A stretch of DNA of 64,000 nt, taken from positions 148,847-212,846 of the forward strand of contig NZ_JAAAPN010000005.1 of the NCBI RefSeq assembly GCF_009909205.1, read 5' to 3'. Of this stretch, positions 3,886-23,063 are shown piece by piece; position 1 is the first letter of the stretch, and each line of letters opens with the position of its first letter. The translations under genes and the position numbers were made by a program. Origin of the DNA: Aquabacterium fontiphilum (GTDB lineage: Bacteria > Pseudomonadota > Gammaproteobacteria > Burkholderiales > Burkholderiaceae_C). The notes below the pieces were generated by a model. The model was not told the DNA's origin. It saw only the letters and a list, made by a program, of their open reading frames with translations, and made no database searches.

Positions 3886-4178
3886 ACGGGCGCTTGCGGC
3901 AATGCCTGCGTCAGCAACTCGGCCATCAGACCATTGAGCTTGCCCGGATGCGCGGCGGCGGCGTCACGCAGTCTCGCGGCCAACGGGGCGGGCAGCTTGC
4001 AGGTCATGGGCACCAGGCTGGGAGCCTGCTCGGCGGGCTTGTCCGACAGGGCGGGGCGCTCGGTACGCGCCACGGCGCGGGCGCCTTGGCCGAAGCGCGG
4101 GGGCACGCCCTGGCGTTTCATCTTGCCTTCGATCTTCAGGCCCATCAGGCGGGCGAGGTCGGTTTTCTTCAGAGACAT
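3711..4178 (-). CDS. Small basic protein with Lys/Ala-rich histone-like tail
   Basis: Not a family I can name. It has 155 residues from the ATG at 4178; a longer frame reaching 4259 would run inside the antiporter gene. Residues 1-95 are a compact part with many charged helices, including a Leu-Pro-Ala-Pro-Leu-Ala-Ala-Arg-Leu segment that could form a ribbon-helix-helix or helix-bundle fold. From about residue 98 the protein is almost only Ala, Lys, Thr, Val, Pro and Gln in short repeats of the Ala-Lys-Lys-Ala type, like the tails of histone-H1-like proteins of beta-proteobacteria. Nucleic-acid binding is inferred. It starts 10 bases after the antiporter gene and ends 18 bases before the helicase gene, so the three are probably one transcript. 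A similar tail occurs on ObgE in this window. Confidence 0.65.
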   Translation of the reverse strand: MSLKKTDLARLMGLKIEGKMKRQGVPPRFGQGARAVARTERPALSDKPAEQAPSLVPMTCKLPAPLAARLRDAAAAHPGKLNGLMAELLTQALPQAPVAQPAVTQKPVAKKATAQKAAAKKAVAKTAAVKQPATKKAAAKKATAKTAPARKAAGR

Positions 4179-15373: not shown

Positions 15374-15510
15374 CGGTTGGGCCGGATGATGACAGCGTGT
15401 GTGTATGTGCTTTGTTCCTGAATCCCGGAAATCAGCTTTCTTTAGAATGGTTACATTGTGGCTTGGGCGCCCTCGGGTGTCCTGAAGCCTGCCTGAAATA
15501 GTTCTGAATC
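15374..15510. other. Intergenic region with candidate minus-strand small RNA
   Basis: About 140 bases between the orphan minus-strand terminator and the GTG of the winged-helix ATPase gene. It is locally less GC-rich than its surroundings and contains TAGAAT (15443-15448) as a -10-like box for the rightward gene, but no convincing -35. Any minus-strand transcript ending at the terminator would have to start here or within the first codons of the next gene. No ORF is supported. Confidence 0.35.
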
Positions 15511-18063
15511 GTGCCGGCCCGTGTCGGCCTCCCGTTGGTGCAACCTTACCGTTTTGGCCCTTACGAGCTGAACCCTGCTGAGCGCATGCTGTACGCCAAC
15601 GGCGAAGCCGTGGCGGTGGGTAGCCGCGCCATCGATGTCCTGGTGGCGCTGTTGCGTCGACAGGGACGCTTGGTGAGCAAGGCGGAGTTGCTGGAGGAGG
15701 CCTGGTCTGGTCTGGTGGTCGAAGAGAACAACCTGCAGGTCCAGATTTCCGCCTTGCGCAAAGTGCTCGGTGCCGACGCCATTGCCACGGTCCCCGGGCG
15801 TGGCTATCGGTTCATGGTGCCCATCGTGTCAGCCGTTGCCCCGGCCCAAGACACCCAAGCGGACCTGCGGGCCGCGGCCGGGCCGGTTCGTGCGGCGCCG
15901 GCGGTGCGTTTGCCGCTGGCTGGTGGCACGCTATGGGGGCGCGACACCGACATGATGGCCATTGAGGCCCTGCACGGCGCCTCGCTTGTCACGATCACCG
16001 GGCCGGCCGGCGTCGGCAAGACCGCCTTTGCGGTGCGTCTGGCGCGGGCGTGGTCGGCGGAATGCCGTGATGGGGCGGTCTGGGTGGACCTGGCTGCCGT
16101 GACCGAGCCTGCGGCCGTCTGCCGCGCACTCGCCCAGGCCGTCAATGTGCCGCAGGCCGATGGCGACACCACGCAGGCGCTGGTAACCGCGCTGCGCGGG
16201 CTGCAGTTGCTCGTGGTGCTGGACAACGCCGAGCATGTGGTCGAGCCGGTGGCCGAGTTGCTCACGACTCTGCTGCAGACGGCGGCTGGCCTGCGGGTTC
16301 TGACGACCAGCCAGTGTCCGCTGAGGGTTGCGGGCGAGCGGCTGTTCACGCTGGGCCCACTGTCGGTGCCCGATCCGGGGGCCTCGCTGGACGATGCCAT
16401 GCGGCACGGGGCGTTTGCCTTGTTCGTCGACCAGGTCCGGGCGATGGACCGCCGCTTCCAACTGACCGACGCCCATGTGGCACTGATTGCAGACCTGTGT
16501 CGGCGACTCGATGGGCTGCCGCTGGCCATCAAGCTGGCAGCCTCGCGGGTGCCGCTGCTCGGTCTGCAGGGCGTGGCCGCGCGGCTCGATGAGCGTTTCA
16601 GGCTGCTGGCAGCGCCTGGCCACAGCGTGCCGTTGCGTCAGCAGACGCTGGCCGCAGCGCTCGACTGGAGCCATGAGCTGCTCAGCGGCGCTGAGCAGGC
16701 GGTGTTTCGGCGCCTGTCCGTCTTTGTGGGAGGTTTCTCGGTCGACATGGCACGCGCACTGGCGCGTGAGCCGGGCGACGATGCATGGGACACCATCGAA
16801 CGCCTGGCCTCGTTGGTGGATCGCTCCCTGGTGGCGGTCGACGACACGGATCCGCCGCGTTATCGCTTGCTGGACACCATGCGCGCCTACGCCTGGGCCC
16901 GTCTGGAACAGGCCGGTGAGGCGGCTGCCATGCGCGCGCGACACGCTGCGCTGATGGCCGATACGCTGGATGCCGCATACCGGGCTTACTGGGAAACGCC
17001 TGATGCGGCCTGGCTGCAGCAGCATGGCGCCGACATCGACAATGTGCGCCTGGCGCTGGACTGGTGCACCCAGGTCGATCCCATGCTGGGCTTGCGGCTG
17101 CTGGGTGCGGCCAGTCCGCTGTTCATGTTGTTGGGGCTGGCGCCCGAATGCCGCTGGCGCGGCCAAATGCTGGAGCCCCATGCCGTGGCGCTGACGCCCG
17201 GTGCGGCCGTGTCGCGCTTCTGGCTGGAGCGCAGTCGCCTGCATTGGGGCGTCTCGAACCATCAGATGCACCAGTTCGCCTTGCATGCGGCGGCCTCCTA
17301 CCGAGCTGCAGACGACGCCATGGGGCTGTTCCTGGCGTTGCGTTGCCTGGCAGGTTCCGGTGCCCTCAACCCGGCCCAGGCGCGCGCAGCGGTGGAGGAG
17401 ATGCTGCAGCTTGAACGTCCTGACTGGCCCGCGCGCCTGCGCGCTCAGCGTCTGATGGCGCAGGTGACCGTGTATCGCGCGGACGGGCTGCTGCTGGAGG
17501 CGCGGCATGCCTGCGAAGACCTCATCATGCTGACGGGCGCGCACGGGCTGGACGGCATGCGGTCGGCTGCACGGCACGATCTGGCCTGCATCTGTCTGAC
17601 CATGAACGACGAGCCAGCCGCATGGCTGGCCTGCCAGCACATCCTCGATGAAGGGCGCAGCCGGCGTGACAATTTCGTGCTGCACGCCTTGGCGCTACAG
17701 GCCGTCATCCGCCTGCGCGCGCGCGACTGGCGCGCCGCCCGCGGGCTGTTGCAGGACTTCCTCACCATGTCCAAATCCCGTGGCTGGGAATGGCTGGACC
17801 TGTACAGCGGCGTGCTGGCCTGGCTGGCGGCGGCCGAGGGGCGTGCCGAAGATGCGGCGCGCCTGCTGGGGCATGCCAAGCGCAGCCGCGGCCATCTGGG
17901 GCCGCTGGATCCATTGATCCTGCGTGTGGATCAGGTGGCCCACGATCTGGTCTATGCGGCCTTGCCTGCGCCGGTGATGAGTCGCCTGATGTCGCAGGGC
18001 GCCAGCCTCATGCCGGAGACGGTCGTGGCCTGGGCGCTGGCCGCGCCCGCGATGCAACCATGA
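15511..18063 (+). CDS. Winged-helix DNA-binding protein fused to STAND/NB-ARC ATPase
   Basis: Large signal-transducing regulator of 850 residues. The N-terminus (about 10-105) is an OmpR/ToxR-type winged helix: Tyr-Arg-Phe-Gly-Pro-Tyr-Glu-Leu at the start, then the Leu-Val-Ser-Lys-Ala-Glu-Leu-Leu helix and a wing ending Gly-Arg-Gly-Tyr-Arg-Phe. A STAND-type ATPase follows, with Walker A Gly-Pro-Ala-Gly-Val-Gly-Lys-Thr (about 164-171), Walker B Leu-Leu-Val-Val-Leu-Asp-Asn-Ala-Glu, and a Gly-Leu-Pro-Leu-Ala-Ile-Lys motif typical of NB-ARC-like predicted ATPases. Residues 480-850 are helical repeat-like. It lacks the receiver domain of OmpR proteins, so the ATPase or repeats probably sense the signal. 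The start is GTG at 15511. The stop overlaps the cyclase gene in ATGA, so the two proteins are made together. Confidence 0.85.
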   Translation: MPARVGLPLVQPYRFGPYELNPAERMLYANGEAVAVGSRAIDVLVALLRRQGRLVSKAELLEEAWSGLVVEENNLQVQISALRKVLGADAIATVPGRGYRFMVPIVSAVAPAQDTQADLRAAAGPVRAAPAVRLPLAGGTLWGRDTDMMAIEALHGASLVTITGPAGVGKTAFAVRLARAWSAECRDGAVWVDLAAVTEPAAVCRALAQAVNVPQADGDTTQALVTALRGLQLLVVLDNAEHVVEPVAELLTTLLQTAAGLRVLTTSQCPLRVAGERLFTLGPLSVPDPGASLDDAMRHGAFALFVDQVRAMDRRFQLTDAHVALIADLCRRLDGLPLAIKLAASRVPLLGLQGVAARLDERFRLLAAPGHSVPLRQQTLAAALDWSHELLSGAEQAVFRRLSVFVGGFSVDMARALAREPGDDAWDTIERLASLVDRSLVAVDDTDPPRYRLLDTMRAYAWARLEQAGEAAAMRARHAALMADTLDAAYRAYWETPDAAWLQQHGADIDNVRLALDWCTQVDPMLGLRLLGAASPLFMLLGLAPECRWRGQMLEPHAVALTPGAAVSRFWLERSRLHWGVSNHQMHQFALHAAASYRAADDAMGLFLALRCLAGSGALNPAQARAAVEEMLQLERPDWPARLRAQRLMAQVTVYRADGLLLEARHACEDLIMLTGAHGLDGMRSAARHDLACICLTMNDEPAAWLACQHILDEGRSRRDNFVLHALALQAVIRLRARDWRAARGLLQDFLTMSKSRGWEWLDLYSGVLAWLAAAEGRAEDAARLLGHAKRSRGHLGPLDPLILRVDQVAHDLVYAALPAPVMSRLMSQGASLMPETVVAWALAAPAMQP

Positions 18064-21000
18064 GCGAGCCCACACCGCCCGACGCGCCCGAGCCGACGGC
18101 CCGATGGGTGACGTGGCTGGTGCATCAGGGCCTGGGGCATCTGGTGCCGCGCCTGGCGGCCGAAGGTGTGGCCGACGATGTCATTGACGCGCTCACCGAG
18201 CCCGACCTGATCGGGCTGGGGCTCAACCTGGGCGACCGCAAGCGGTTCATGCGCGCCCTGGCGGATTGGTCGCCCCCCTCAGATGACGTCCCGGCCGATG
18301 CGGGCGAGCGGCGCCAGTTGACCATCCTCTTCTGTGACCTGGTGGATTCGACAGCGTTGTGTCAGTCCATGTCACCCGAGGCCTGGCGCGACACGGTGCT
18401 GCATTACCAACGCGTGGCAGCGCAGGTGCTGGCGGCGTACGGCGGCACGGTGGCGCAGTATCTGGGTGACGGCCTGCTGGTGTACTTCGGTTTCCCGCAA
18501 GCCCACGAAGATGCCCCCGTTCGCGCCGTGCATGCAGCGCTGGACATCGTGTCTGCGCTGGCCGAGCAACCGTGTACGGTGTCGGGTCAGCCCGTGACGC
18601 TGCGCGTGCGCCTGGGGCTGGACACGGGCCTGGTTGTGGTCGGTGACATGGGCTCCGGTAACCGGCGGGAACGGCTGGCACTGGGCGATGCGCCCAATGT
18701 GGCCGCACGTTTGCAGTCGTTGGCGGCACCGGGCGAGGTGCTTGTCAGCGCCGTCACCTGGCAGCTGGTTCAGGCCCACTTTGAGGGCAGTAGCCACGGG
18801 TTGCACGCGCTCAAGGGGCGCCCTGCCCCCACGGAGGTCTGGCAGGTACATCGCAGCCGCGACCTTCAGCACCGTTATGACGCGCGCCGTCAACTGGGCT
18901 GGACGCCCATGGTCGGGCGCCAGGCCGAACTGCGCGAGTTGTGTGCGGCATGGCAGCGGGCCACGCAAGGGCGCGGCCAGGCGGTGTGGGTCGAGGCCGA
19001 GCCGGGGATGGGGAAGTCGCGGCTGGTCGAGGCCCTGCGTGAGCAGTTGGCGCTGTCAGAGGGCCAGCGCTGGGCCTGGCAGGCGTCGCCCCAGCACGTG
19101 CAGCGCGCCTTTCATCTGGCCACTGACGCGCTGACCCGTCAGGCCGCGCTCGTCCGAACACAGCCGCCGGCGGCGCAGGCCGCACGCCTGACGGCGTGGT
19201 TGCACGAGCAGGGCATTCGTGATGCGCTCGCTCCCGCACTGCTGTGCGCGATGATGGGCCTGCCCGTCCCGCCCGATGCGCCCCCGCTGCCGGCCAGCGC
19301 CGATGCGCGCTGGGCCGCGACCGGACAGGTGCTGCAGGCGCTGTTGACGGCGCAGGCGGCCAGGGTGCCCTTGCTGTGGGTCATCGAAGACCTGCACTGG
19401 GCAGACAGTCTGACGCGCGACTGGCTGCTGTCCACGCTGGCGGCCGTGCGCGACTGGCCGGTGCTCATCGTGCTGACCGCGCGGCCCGAGGTCAGCTGGC
19501 GGCCACCGATTGCCGAGCACATCCACCTGATGCAGCTGCGCGGTCTGGCGCCGGACGAGGTAGCCGGGCTGGTCGCACACGCGGCGCGCCATCACGCGCT
19601 GGATCCGGTCTGGCAGTCCGTCATTGCCGAACGCACCGACGGTGTGCCGCTGTTCGTGGAAGAGCTGGCCCGTATGCTGGCCGAGCGACCCGGTGGTGCC
19701 CCGTGTGATGCCTTGTCGGTCCCCCAGACGCTGCACGGCTTGCTGATGGCCCGCCTGGACCAGGTTCCGCGCGCACGCACGGTGGCGCAGGCGGCATCTG
19801 TCATTGGCAGGGCGTTCTCGCGCGAAGGCCTGCTGGCCATGCTGACCCAGGCTGGGCTCGGGGTGGATGTGGATGCGGCGCTGGCAGAACTGCAGGCAGC
19901 CGGCCTGATCCTTCAGGATGTCGCAGCCGGCGGTCTTTCCGGTGGGGCGGGGCGTCTGGTGTTCAAGCACGCGCTCGTGCAGGACGTGGCCTACGAGGCC
20001 ATGGTGCACAGCCAGCGGGTGGCGCTGCACGCAGCCTGGCTGACCGTGCTGTCGCAAGCGGGGCAGGGCGCGACCGAGCCTGCCCTGTTGGCGAGACATG
20101 CCGACGCGGCCGGGCTGCATGAGCAGGCGGTGGCCTGGTGGCTGCGAGCCAGCGAACAAGCGCTGCAACAACTGGCCCTTGCCGACGCCGTGGCGTGTCT
20201 GCAGGGGGGGCTGCTCGCCGTCGAACAGTTGGCCCCGTCGTCTGGCCGCGATCGCCACAGTCTTCAGTTGCACGCGATGCTGGGCACGGTTCACATGCTG
20301 CAGCGGGGATGGGCAGCCCCGGAAGTCGAGCAGGCCTATGCGCGCGCGCACGCCCTGGCGCAGGCGGCCGACGGAGTCGAGGAGGCCTTGTGGCCGCTAT
20401 GGGGCCTGTGTGTGTTTCGCCAGGTGCGGGGCGAGCTTGACGAGGCCGTCACGGTGGGGCGCCGCATGATGACGGTGGCGCGCCAGTCCAGCAGCCGAAT
20501 GGCCTGGCTGGTCACCAACATGATGCACACACAGTTGTGCCTGTACAGCGGTCGCCCGGCAGAGGTGCCGGCGCATGTCGAGCAGGTGCTCCACCGCTAC
20601 AGCGACCCGGCCGACCGCAGCCTGATGGCGCTGTACTCGACTGATCTGTTGTTGGTCGCCCAGGTTCACGGTCTGCATGCGCGATGGATACTGGGTGAGG
20701 CGGTGGCGCTTGAGCCGGCGTGCGATGCACTGGTTGCCCGGGCGCAGGCGTTGCAACATCCCTACTCGCTCGCATGGGCGCTGAGCTGGGGCGCGATGGT
20801 GTTGTTGTTCGAGGGGCGGCATGACGCATTGGCCGAGCGGGCTCGGGCCGCCCTGACCTTGGCCGAGTCGCATGGCTATGCTTACGTGCAGGCCATGGCG
20901 CGCTTCCAGCTGGGCTGGTGCGCTGTCCAGCGGGGCGAGGCAATCGATGGCCTGGCTGCAATGCGTGACGCGCTGGCTGATTTCCAGGCCACGGGGGCAG

Positions 21001-21320
21001 GCATCGTTGTCCCCTTTTTCCAGACGGTGCTGGCCGAGGCGCTGGGCACCCAGGGGTGGATCGCAGAAGGCCTTGCGCTGGTGGAGCAGGCCCTGGCGCG
21101 CACGGCAGCCGGTGGAGAGCGCTGGCATGAGGCGGAAGGTCACCGCGTGCTGGCCGTATTGCGTCGCCAGGCTGGCGAGCCCGACGAGTCCGTTCAGGCT
21201 GCTTTGCTGCGAGCAGCCGAGGTGGCACGGCAGCAAGGCGCGGTGCGTTGGGCACAGCGCAGTCGTCAGAACTGGACCGAATGGTTCAGTTCGCCATTGC
21301 CGCTGGCTGTGCCGCCTTGA
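18060..21320 (+). CDS. SAM-domain class III nucleotidyl cyclase fused to AAA/STAND ATPase and TPR
   Basis: Multidomain signalling enzyme of 1086 residues. Residues about 14-70 look like a sterile alpha motif (Trp-Leu-x2-x2-Gly-Leu-Gly... Leu-Thr-Glu-x-Asp-Leu... Leu-Gly-Leu-Asn-Leu-Gly-Asp-Arg). Residues about 82-260 form a class III adenylate/guanylate cyclase domain. The two metal-binding aspartates are Asp93 (Phe-Cys-Asp-Leu-Val) and Asp137 (Leu-Gly-Asp-Gly), spaced 44 residues, and the transition-state pair is in Asn-Val-Ala-Ala-Arg. An ATPase follows with Gly-Met-Gly-Lys-Ser (about 315) and Walker B Trp-Val-Ile-Glu-Asp-Leu-His-Trp-Ala-Asp. Helical TPR-like repeats fill the last 350 residues. 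The active-site set looks complete; cAMP or cGMP is a guess. It is translationally coupled to the preceding winged-helix ATPase, and its 3' end overlaps the converging flavoprotein gene by 35 bases. Confidence 0.87.
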   Translation: MSEPTPPDAPEPTARWVTWLVHQGLGHLVPRLAAEGVADDVIDALTEPDLIGLGLNLGDRKRFMRALADWSPPSDDVPADAGERRQLTILFCDLVDSTALCQSMSPEAWRDTVLHYQRVAAQVLAAYGGTVAQYLGDGLLVYFGFPQAHEDAPVRAVHAALDIVSALAEQPCTVSGQPVTLRVRLGLDTGLVVVGDMGSGNRRERLALGDAPNVAARLQSLAAPGEVLVSAVTWQLVQAHFEGSSHGLHALKGRPAPTEVWQVHRSRDLQHRYDARRQLGWTPMVGRQAELRELCAAWQRATQGRGQAVWVEAEPGMGKSRLVEALREQLALSEGQRWAWQASPQHVQRAFHLATDALTRQAALVRTQPPAAQAARLTAWLHEQGIRDALAPALLCAMMGLPVPPDAPPLPASADARWAATGQVLQALLTAQAARVPLLWVIEDLHWADSLTRDWLLSTLAAVRDWPVLIVLTARPEVSWRPPIAEHIHLMQLRGLAPDEVAGLVAHAARHHALDPVWQSVIAERTDGVPLFVEELARMLAERPGGAPCDALSVPQTLHGLLMARLDQVPRARTVAQAASVIGRAFSREGLLAMLTQAGLGVDVDAALAELQAAGLILQDVAAGGLSGGAGRLVFKHALVQDVAYEAMVHSQRVALHAAWLTVLSQAGQGATEPALLARHADAAGLHEQAVAWWLRASEQALQQLALADAVACLQGGLLAVEQLAPSSGRDRHSLQLHAMLGTVHMLQRGWAAPEVEQAYARAHALAQAADGVEEALWPLWGLCVFRQVRGELDEAVTVGRRMMTVARQSSSRMAWLVTNMMHTQLCLYSGRPAEVPAHVEQVLHRYSDPADRSLMALYSTDLLLVAQVHGLHARWILGEAVALEPACDALVARAQALQHPYSLAWALSWGAMVLLFEGRHDALAERARAALTLAESHGYAYVQAMARFQLGWCAVQRGEAIDGLAAMRDALADFQATGAGIVVPFFQTVLAEALGTQGWIAEGLALVEQALARTAAGGERWHEAEGHRVLAVLRRQAGEPDESVQAALLRAAEVARQQGAVRWAQRSRQNWTEWFSSPLPLAVPP

Positions 21321-22524
21321 GGATGGCTTCGACGTTGGCGGGATCGAAGAACGCCGAGGGCGTCACCGTCTGCCCGAAGAGACCGAAGTAGCGGTCGATC
21401 TGAGATTGGTTGCCAGCCAAGGCCACGAACAGTCCGATTACCTCTTCTGTTGGCGGAGACAGCTTGGCCATCTCCTGCGCGAACAGATGAAGCGGCACGG
21501 CAGTGGCGTCCCGGCGCGGGCCATAGTCGGCCAGTGCGGCGTCCAGCGGACGCTGGCCGGACAAGCCCTCGTGCACCAGTTCGGCCAGCAGGTCGGCGTC
21601 CCGCAGCGCGTTGGTGATGCCCGCAGCCGTGATCGGGTCCACCGTCACGCCGGCATCGCCCACCAGCGCCCAGCCCGGGCCCGAAGCCTGCCGGCAGCCT
21701 GTCCCCACACCGACGGTGACCCAATCCGCCTCCCGGCGCGCCGCGCGCAGCCGTTGGGCCAGATCGGGCACCATGGCCGTCATCTGGCCCATGAAGTCCT
21801 GCTCGATCTCATCACGGCCCACCCGTGGCGCGTGGCCGGGTTGAATGATGCCGATCACGGCCTGGCCGTCATGGGTTTCCCAGGCGTAGACCATGCGCTC
21901 TGGACGCGAATAGAACTCCACGCCGTCCAGCGCGATGCCGCTGAAGTAGGAGAAGGTGTTGAAGGCGCCGGCCTCTTTTGGGAAGGTGTGATACGACTCG
22001 GCTGCCACGCAGCGCGCCACGCGCGAGTGCGTGCCGTCGGCCCCTACGACGATGCGCGCGCGCGCCTCGAAGGGGCTGCCATCATCCAGGCGGCCCTGAA
22101 TGCCCACAACCCGTCCGCCTTCTTGAAGCACGTCTTCCAGCATGACACCTTCGCGGAGTTCGGCGCCGGCGTCGCGCGCGGCGTCGATCAGCACCTGATC
22201 CAGCACGATGCGGCGTGGCGCCATGGCGGCACCGACCCGTGTGTCCGGTGGAGCGCCACGCAACACCAGTTCGCCCATGTCGAGCTTGAATCGGGTCAGT
22301 TCGGGACAGCCGGTCGCGCGCAGTGCGTCAAGGACGCCCCACTTGGCCAGCAAGTCCACGCCGCTGTGCCACAGCAGATGGGTGGACAGGCGCACGTCGC
22401 TGGGGAAGCGGGCGTGGTCGATCATCAGCACGCGGTGGCCCTGTCGGGCGAGGAGCATGGCGGAAGCGGCGCCCGCGCAGCGGGCACCCACGACGATCAC
22501 GTCATATTCGGGCGAAGTGGACAT
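21286..22524 (-). CDS. FAD-dependent monooxygenase/oxidoreductase
   Basis: Flavoprotein of 412 residues in the p-hydroxybenzoate hydroxylase/geranylgeranyl-reductase-like fold. The N-terminal dinucleotide-binding motif is Val-Ile-Val-Val-Gly-Ala-Arg-Cys-Ala-Gly-Ala-Ala, followed by Leu-Met-Ile-Asp. The central Gly-Ala-Asp-Gly-Thr-His-Ser (DG motif) and the Gly-Asp-Ala-Gly motif (Leu-Val-Gly-Asp-Ala-Gly-Val-Thr-Val-Asp-Pro) complete the FAD-binding set. Substrate unknown; relatives act on aromatic compounds or are halogenase-like. The ATG at 22524 was chosen because the Rossmann strand begins seven residues later; a frame from 22623 adds an unconvincing leader. No helper genes lie nearby, and the coding end overlaps the cyclase gene convergently. 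Confidence 0.85.
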   Translation of the reverse strand: MSTSPEYDVIVVGARCAGAASAMLLARQGHRVLMIDHARFPSDVRLSTHLLWHSGVDLLAKWGVLDALRATGCPELTRFKLDMGELVLRGAPPDTRVGAAMAPRRIVLDQVLIDAARDAGAELREGVMLEDVLQEGGRVVGIQGRLDDGSPFEARARIVVGADGTHSRVARCVAAESYHTFPKEAGAFNTFSYFSGIALDGVEFYSRPERMVYAWETHDGQAVIGIIQPGHAPRVGRDEIEQDFMGQMTAMVPDLAQRLRAARREADWVTVGVGTGCRQASGPGWALVGDAGVTVDPITAAGITNALRDADLLAELVHEGLSGQRPLDAALADYGPRRDATAVPLHLFAQEMAKLSPPTEEVIGLFVALAGNQSQIDRYFGLFGQTVTPSAFFDPANVEAILKAAQPAAMAN

Positions 22525-22715: not shown

Positions 22716-22743
22716 TCAAGTTTCCCTGCTTTTTGGTCGATGG
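22716..22743 (+). promoter_or_regulatory. Candidate sigma-28 (FliA) type promoter
   Basis: TCAAGTTT at 22716-22723 and GTCGATGG at 22736-22743, 12 bases apart, resemble the flagellar sigma-28 consensus TAAAGTTT-N11-GCCGATAA (7 of 8 and 5 of 8 matches, spacing one base long). The predicted start point falls just before the GGAGGG ribosome site of a flagellar-rod-like mini-protein. The match is by eye only. Confidence 0.35.
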
Positions 22744-22763
22744 TCGTGCCATTGGAGGGCCCC

Positions 22764-23063
22764 ATGAACATTGTTTCCACGACAGCACTCAGCGGCGTGC
22801 AGGCCGCTTCGTTGCGGCTGGACACGGCCGCTCACAACATTGCCAACGCGCAGACGCCGCAGTTTCAGCGGCAGGTGGTCCAGCTTGAGACCCAGGAGCA
22901 GGCCGGCGTGCTGACCACGATCGGCAAGGCCGAGGAGATTGGTGCAGCCCTTGCGGCCGACCTGGTCGAACAGATGGACGCGGCGGCCGCCTACCGGGCG
23001 AACCTGCGCAGCATTCAGACCGATCAGCAGCTCACAGGCAGCCTCCTGGACATCAAGGCCTGA
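22764..23063 (+). CDS. Orphan flagellar basal-body rod-like mini-protein
   Basis: Small protein of 99 residues. The N-terminus contains the flagellar rod/hook signature: Ala-Leu-Ser-Gly-Val-Gln-Ala-Ala-Ser followed by His-Asn-Ile-Ala-Asn-Ala-Gln-Thr-Pro, where family members carry Asn-Asn-Ile-Ala-Asn-x-x-Thr-Pro-Gly. The C-terminus (Ala-Ala-Tyr-Arg-Ala-Asn-Leu... Gly-Ser-Leu-Leu-Asp-Ile) resembles the C-terminal helix of the same proteins. The middle is far shorter than FlgB, FlgC or FlgF, so this is two terminal helices joined directly, able in principle to form the rod coiled coil. No other flagellar genes are in the window. The ATG at 22764 has GGAGGG (22754-22759). Role unknown. Confidence 0.75.
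   Translation: MNIVSTTALSGVQAASLRLDTAAHNIANAQTPQFQRQVVQLETQEQAGVLTTIGKAEEIGAALAADLVEQMDAAAAYRANLRSIQTDQQLTGSLLDIKA

Follow-up and report, generated by a model that had tools for sequence, protein, structure and literature searches.

A stretch of 64,000 nucleotides from the genome of Aquabacterium fontiphilum (assembly GCF_009909205.1, contig NZ_JAAAPN010000005.1, positions 148,847 to 212,846; hereafter the window) carries two adjacent, very large genes, here called P1 and P2, and a converging flavoprotein gene, FLAVO. This gene group is real and conserved at the level of the genus, and every piece of it is of a known kind. We give about even odds (a probability of roughly 0.5) to the reading that it constitutes a genus-level sensing module, in which an AfsR/MalT-like regulator (P1) is combined with a STAND-gated cyclase (P2) and an FAD enzyme (FLAVO). 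The observations behind this assignment are the gene order and its conservation, the co-occurrence of P2 with FLAVO, the operator-like repeats ahead of P1 and the active-site letters of the P2 cyclase. STAND regulators and cyclase-ATPase proteins are common and, to our knowledge, few of them have a known trigger. The locus offers a natural pair of the two, with a candidate operator and a linked enzyme that may hint at the ligand; sister genomes with full, P1-only and empty forms of the site make a ready comparative system for asking what such sensors detect, and whether the large cyclase-ATPase proteins are enzymes at all.

The original prediction, derived from the letters of the window, described open reading frames (ORFs) of 850 and 1086 residues sharing an ATGA, and both frames and the overlap were confirmed (Table 1). 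The proposed joining of a winged-helix DNA-binding domain to a STAND ATPase in P1 agrees with the Pfam matches (Trans_reg_C at residues 31-101, E 1.8e-14; AAA_22 at 156-256; NACHT at 159-266), the STAND ATPase beginning at about residue 141 and being separated from the winged helix by about 40 residues. Within the segment 69-87, which probably makes the recognition contact of the winged helix, 16 of 19 positions do not vary among 17 aligned rows. A C-terminal region exists in P1 as predicted; its C-terminal half has no Pfam match of any kind, TPR models included, so that the repeats ascribed to it are conjectural. The succession of domains foreseen for P2 (SAM-like domain, class III cyclase, second ATPase, repeats) is borne out by Pfam (Guanylate_cyc at 85-261, E 9.3e-18; AAA_16 at 284-470, E 1.2e-18), by its orthologues and by a structural model. 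In the window's P2 the SAM domain stays below the Pfam cut-off (16 vs 23 bits), and SAM_1 matches 15 of 15 aligned P2 orthologues at E<=0.1 (best 3.3e-9). The AlphaFold2 model of P2 (four sequences; mean pLDDT 77.2, pTM 0.44) predicts five helices at 15-70, the cyclase fold, the ATPase and a long helix run. A Foldseek search with this model returned first 6mfv, a STAND protein with a TPR sensor (E 1e-12, at a low whole-length TM), and after it mostly class III cyclases. P1 and P2 have no significant similarity to each other by BLAST, and their profile comparison gave a weak match of the ATPase only (probability 6%).

Table 1. Features of the locus, in positions of the window (position 1 is its first nucleotide).
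Feature	Position	Strand	Details
Possible core promoter ahead of the repeats: TTTCTTTAGAAT and ATTGT blocks, both conserved	15437..15459	+	alignment
Candidate P1 operator: three CTKAA direct repeats, 11-bp spacing, CTGAAGCCTGCCTGAAATAGTTCTGAA	15482..15508	+	pattern search
P1: OmpR-type winged helix and STAND ATPase	15511..18063	+	850 aa; GTG start (start codon uncertain)
ATGA stop/start overlap of P1 and P2	18060..18063	+	sequence
P2: SAM-like (15-70), class III cyclase (83-265), AAA_16 STAND (from 282), helical repeats (~674-1075)	18060..21320	+	1086 aa; ATG at 18060
FLAVO: FAD-dependent oxidoreductase	21286..22524	-	412 aa; FAD_binding_3, E 2.8e-21
Small flagellar-rod-like protein next to DinB, a flanking marker outside the module (right border of the site)	22740..23063	+	PF00460, E 5.2e-6, N-terminal motif; synteny

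The comparative analysis covered 42 genomes of the genus (G numbers below are our handles for genomes, L numbers for stretches and C numbers for contigs), that of the window having 3.65 Mb in 37 contigs. All three genes were searched for in 37 genomes, with identity used to tell orthologues from remoter homologues; for G435 the searches covered P2, DinB, the FMN reductase and the repeat pattern only, and in G436-G439 P1 and FLAVO were judged within the fetched stretches. P1 adjoins P2 in 19 of the 42 genomes (G436 and G437 among them), a second location of the locus included. P2 orthologues occur in 20 genomes, and the only one lacking P1 beside P2 is G015, whose contig ends inside P2. As read, P1 is incomplete in three of the 19, namely in G019 (last part only), G008 (frame change near the end) and G009 (start cut at a contig end). 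Within the 37-genome set P1 and P2 occur together in 17 genomes (counting G019), P1 without P2 in four (G027 being a contig-end piece), P2 without P1 in one (G015, 53% complete) and neither in 15 (Fisher p 6.7e-6, a test that, like the one below, ignores shared ancestry). The original prediction spoke of strict coupling and proposed checking whether the pair and its ATGA overlap are conserved. The adjacency is conserved; the overlap is found in only five of the 17 junctions read (window, G001, G009, G026 and G011, the last as seen directly in its letters), and P1 also occurs without P2, so that strict coupling is not supported. The candidate P2 starts of G031 overlap or abut the P1 stop, and at ten junctions the nearest listed P2 start follows the stop at a distance of 1 to 36 bases (84 bases in G025). 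An apparent P1-P2 fusion in G008 was discarded as evidence, the single frame being due to the frame change near the P1 end in an assembly with 9% contamination.

The link between P2 and FLAVO is the stronger of the two. Across the 37 genomes both genes are present in 17, P2 alone in one, a FLAVO match alone in none and neither in 19 (Fisher p 1.1e-9); no FLAVO match at E<=1e-40 was found without P2 in this set, and in the sole P2-only genome (G022) the contig ends inside P2. With these counts the converging flavoprotein, mentioned by the original prediction in an aside, has become the better lead. In the window the tails of FLAVO and P2 share 35 bases. By sequence the nearest solved relatives of FLAVO are halogenases, followed by a salicylate-type monooxygenase and, at a lower rank, a geranylgeranyl-type reductase; a structural model of FLAVO was unusable (mean pLDDT 31.5). 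A distant relative (36%) occurs in G043, a genome of another family, and plasmids of Streptomyces, Priestia, Rhodococcus, Phyllobacterium and others carry relatives of about 28-43% identity (among the 40 records listed of 41); the three plasmid regions opened have no P1- or P2-like ORF. Among 399 sampled genomes of the order Burkholderiales, the window's own included, a FLAVO relative at E<=1e-60 was found in one genome besides our own, and no P1- or P2-like ORF in the stretch read there.

In the window the genes follow the order DUF748, PHA-depolymerase-like, P1, P2, FLAVO, flagellar-rod-like and DinB-type polymerase, and the site between DUF748 and DinB was found in three states. The full P1-P2-FLAVO locus occupies it in the window, G001, G002, G003, G005, G008, G009 (spanning two contigs), G011, G019, G026 and G436; P1 stands there without P2 or FLAVO in G017, G023, G033 and G438; and the site is empty in G006, G013, G018, G020, G028, G029, G035 and G439. 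The locus of G027 is cut by contigs, and in other genomes DinB lies outside the DUF748-to-DinB arrangement. Away from DinB, the triad is found with its order unchanged in G004, G014, G016, G025, G031, G034 and G437, which the P1 and P2 trees unite with G022 in a single clade (SH-aLRT 99), so that one relocation suffices. SH-aLRT is the sole support measure of the P1, P2 and DinB trees, which come from quick searches; in the first two the branch leading to the window is long and was flagged. Starred branches force the four P1-only rows into three separate positions on the P1 tree, and on the DinB tree the full state requires at least four changes by the starred branches and six by parsimony. 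In the simplest reading of these trees, gains being possible too, P2 and FLAVO would have been jointly lost three times, leaving P1.

Three of these genomes show individual deviations. In G008 about 3.4 kb of other sequence (L066 11229-14608) separates P2 from FLAVO, which was unseen in the other full loci read. In G019 (L071 8789-12460) P1 has lost its N-terminal part, and what is left of it, about 150 C-terminal residues, shares an ORF with DUF748. G438, with P1 and no P2 at the DinB site, carries elsewhere in the genome (C14; L166 7174-12911) an additional pair, in which a P2-like gene (32% identical) converges with a P1-like one (45%).

The original prediction that the P1 side controls transcription is reinforced by the region ahead of the gene, where operator-like repeats make binding of P1 probable. 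The repeats end two bases ahead of the P1 GTG, and the pattern CTKAAN6CTKAAN6CTKAA has its sole exact match in the own genome there. Across the 42 genus genomes the exact three-unit pattern has 21 matches (in 20 genomes), 14 of them directly upstream of P1, and a reversed control pattern has none. A scan of the window allowing up to two mismatches gave this one match vs 0.09 expected, at least one match being obtained in nine of 100 shuffles. In an alignment of 21 P1 upstream stretches, CTGAA or CTTAA units recur each 11 bases downstream of a TTTCTTTAGAAT-like block, with two exact pairs in 13 stretches, one in six and none in G022 and G025. The exact three-unit form is retained in all four P1-only genomes and has no match in the eight empty-site genomes. 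TTAGAAT or CTAGAAT is present in 20 of the 21 upstream regions (missing in G031), and the spacing between the TTTCTTTAGAAT and ATTGT blocks is variable, five bases in the window, so that a 6-base pattern misses it. TAGAAT would be the -10 element, and the three CTKAA repeats are likely an operator bound by P1; as they lie downstream of the conserved TAGAAT block, self-repression by P1 is as possible as activation. The operators of the Streptomyces regulator AfsR are direct repeats at 11- or 22-bp steps with 8 bp from the last repeat to the -10 element, and inhibition by the NOD and TPR parts of AfsR is reported to be relieved by ATP (PMC10936776).

Further upstream, positions 15388-15397 of the window read GATGACAGCG, the core of which, GACAGCG, was found in all 21 P1 upstream stretches, 159-310 bases ahead of P1 codon 14. 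Five genomes of a single clade also have a three-unit CTKAA repeat 141-154 bases ahead of a gene of the FMN-reductase family; the repeat is exact in G004, G014 and G034 and has one mismatch in G016 and G437 (in G014, for example, the repeat is at 4020-4046 and the gene at 4172-4726 of L178; the other stretches are L179, L180, L187 and L188). No repeat was detected at up to three mismatches upstream of the relatives of this gene in G015, G022, G025, G031 and G436 or of the distant relatives in G013, G021 and G439. Since four unrelated exact matches (G009, G010, G023 and G437:C20) occur too, the FMN-reductase-family gene is a possible second P1 target outside the module, to be taken only as a lead.

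Several findings weigh against a single sensing module. P1 persists in four genomes that have neither P2 nor FLAVO, and must therefore have work of its own. Conversely, G019 retains long open frames for P2 and FLAVO next to a C-terminal remnant of P1, and in G027 the first 53 residues of FLAVO were found at a contig end and no P2 in an assembly that is 81% complete. No two-unit CTKAA site at up to one mismatch precedes FLAVO in the 21 upstream stretches, which leaves control of FLAVO by P1 unsupported. As the tails of P2 and FLAVO overlap, one deletion removes both, so that their joint loss supports a unit and is no proof of shared function. The substitutions at the P2 active site described below (Gln133, and His213 in some sequences) would also be compatible with a non-catalytic cyclase domain. 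Finally, outside the genus none of 15 order stretches with a P1-like ORF has it beside a P2-type cyclase or FLAVO. These stretches cover 18 of the 25 P1-like rows outside the own genome (seven were left out), and 40 further stretches cover 42 of the 48 P2-like rows (left out: G290:C10, G404, G198:C29, G296, G075:C32 and G094), some stretches ending at contig ends; the proteins come from 18 (P1-like) and 38 (P2-like) of the 399 order genomes, own included. The 40 stretches hold no P1-like or FLAVO-like ORF at E<=1e-8. The original prediction would have fallen had homologues of the two genes normally occurred apart; outside the genus the families indeed never meet in the stretches read, and within it they are neighbours.

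These data could also be accounted for by descent alone, P1 being an independent autoregulated STAND regulator, and P2 with FLAVO a second unit that ended up behind it in this genus and shares the P1 transcript and no signal with it. The four P1-only genomes, all keeping the exact three-unit operator, fit this account, as do the eight empty sites, the 40 order stretches and the scarcity of ATGA junctions. It is harder to reconcile with the fact that, of the 20 genomes carrying a P2 orthologue, 19 have P1 next to it, at either location, and we hold it to be rather unlikely.

The cyclase of P2 had been called apparently complete. The window's protein does have Asp93, Asp137 and the Asn-x3-Arg motif (Asn213, Arg217). 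Both metal-binding Asp residues are found without exception in 15 aligned rows and in a comparison of 17 genus sequences, and Arg217 does not vary in the genus alignment either. The completeness does not extend to the residues that we take to be the substrate positions, 133 and 206. Position 133 is Gln in 17 of 17 genus sequences, the same column holding Lys in CyaB and Glu in Cya2, so that P2 has neither the Lys (ATP) nor the Glu (GTP) that is canonical at the purine site; the second position is Leu206. Asn213 is replaced by His in four of the 17 (G001, G009, G011, G026). Gln is also the commonest letter at position 133 among relatives outside the genus, a comparison that includes the window row and several proteins without a cyclase domain (P1-like regulators, an ATPase). 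Rv0386 of Mycobacterium reportedly has Gln and Asn as its substrate residues. This enzyme, with its alternative substrate-binding mode, is active, and two of its sisters lacking residues have been proposed to be nucleotide-binding regulators (PMC4452763, PMC3466318). Cyclase activity of P2 is accordingly plausible as judged from its letters, and the product is not readable from them.

By analogy with the suggestion made for those two of the three Mycobacterium cyclase/LuxR proteins (Mclx2 and Mclx3; PMC4452763), the cyclase domain of P2 could be a nucleotide sensor that gates the STAND module, and no enzyme. Gln at the Lys site throughout the genus and His at position 213 would suit such a role, as would the altered metal residues of some relatives in the order. 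Set against it are the invariance of both metal Asp and of Arg217, the activity of Rv0386 and the conservation of the cyclase, which exceeds that of every other P2 domain (mean pairwise identity 0.68 vs 0.53-0.60, 15 rows), and we find a purely sensory cyclase improbable. The altered relatives are the order P2-like proteins of L107, L108, L109 and L093-L095, which have Glu for the first metal Asp, or have lost more, pointing to probable non-catalytic cyclase domains within the family.

A defence system, in which P2 would make a cyclic nucleotide upon phage infection, is very improbable: STAND proteins do serve in defence in general, and PADLOC (run on P1 and P2) matches P2 with its PycC models (best 2.5e-19), but these matches are confined to the cyclase fold, the neighbours scanned include no effector-like gene, and the synteny with genes of no known defence role is long-kept. 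The defence-like alternative raised by the original prediction is thus abandoned.

In the sensing module that we favour, P1 would bind the three 11-bp-spaced CTKAA repeats before its own gene and thereby set the level of P1 and P2. P2 would act as a class III cyclase with a two-subunit active site, switched by its SAM domain, STAND ATPase and repeat sensor; ligand and ATP would cluster P2 and so join the cyclase halves. FLAVO would either make or remove the sensed small molecule or be the enzyme on whose behalf the pathway operates. As reader of the cyclic nucleotide we envisage one of the cyclic-nucleotide-monophosphate (cNMP)-binding proteins encoded elsewhere; the own genome has nine cNMP-binding domains, none of them on the window's contig. 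That one trigger drives both P1 and P2 is plausible. A fuller version, in which the same or a related FLAVO-processed molecule clusters both proteins through their C-terminal sensors, possibly together, so that P1 and P2 write a transcriptional and a cyclic-nucleotide message as two outputs, is speculative and in our estimate improbable; the cyclic nucleotide might then perhaps have an unusual base, because of the Gln at the purine site.

Our literature searches, whose coverage left most subscription papers outside, listed no account of a regulator-cyclase pair accompanied by a flavoprotein and a candidate operator. MalT has a LuxR-type C-terminus, which is not matched in P1 by Pfam. P1 also differs from the AfsR/MalT-type regulators in that its gene precedes a cyclase gene. 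AfsR itself (a large SARP of Streptomyces) resembles P1 in its OmpR-type DNA-binding head on a NOD/STAND ATPase with a C-terminal region and, judging from our candidate, in the direct-repeat operator at 11-bp steps (PMC10936776). Unlike AfsR, P1 has no BTA model match, its two domains being about 40 residues apart. It has STAND-type matches, and its tail has no TPR model match. Mclx1-3 (Rv0386, Rv1358 and Rv2488c) likewise combine a class III cyclase having non-standard substrate residues with a DNA-binding regulator, and the question of enzyme or regulator arises for both; there, however, the domain is of LuxR type and sits within one chain, whereas here two proteins share the task and the domain is of OmpR type, and neither a SAM domain nor a flavoprotein partner is mentioned in the available part of that source (PMC4452763).

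The TOMM kinase/cyclase model TIGR03903 aligns with P2 over positions 245-1260 of 1267 with 420 bits. P2 has a SAM domain in place of model positions 1-244, which are presumably the kinase part, and with the N-terminal part missing and a cut-off of 705.75 bits its identification as a TOMM kinase/cyclase was rejected. In Pycsar an effector gene, of PycTM type, lies adjacent. The PycC models of PADLOC match P2 over the cyclase domain only, and the neighbours, scanned with Pfam/NCBIfam (DUF748, PHA-depolymerase-like, FAD oxidoreductase, rod-like, DinB-type polymerase), include no adjacent Pycsar-type effector.

Closest in architecture are the SAM-cyclase-AAA_16-repeat proteins of Sinorhizobium, Microvirga and others, which cover 94-97% of P2 at about 34-36% identity (in the 40 plasmid rows listed of 233). 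They differ in their surroundings: neither the three plasmid regions opened nor the 40 order stretches have an ORF resembling P1 or FLAVO. An ORF near the P1-like ORF of L130 matches the ATPase part of P2 only (68 bits) and has no cyclase part. In three further stretches of the order (L131 3808-6723, L132 5402-8428 and L139 7375-10245) winged-helix STAND regulators have a C-terminal part that matches the P2 repeats with domain scores of 91-117 bits, so that a related tail serves both regulator and cyclase heads.

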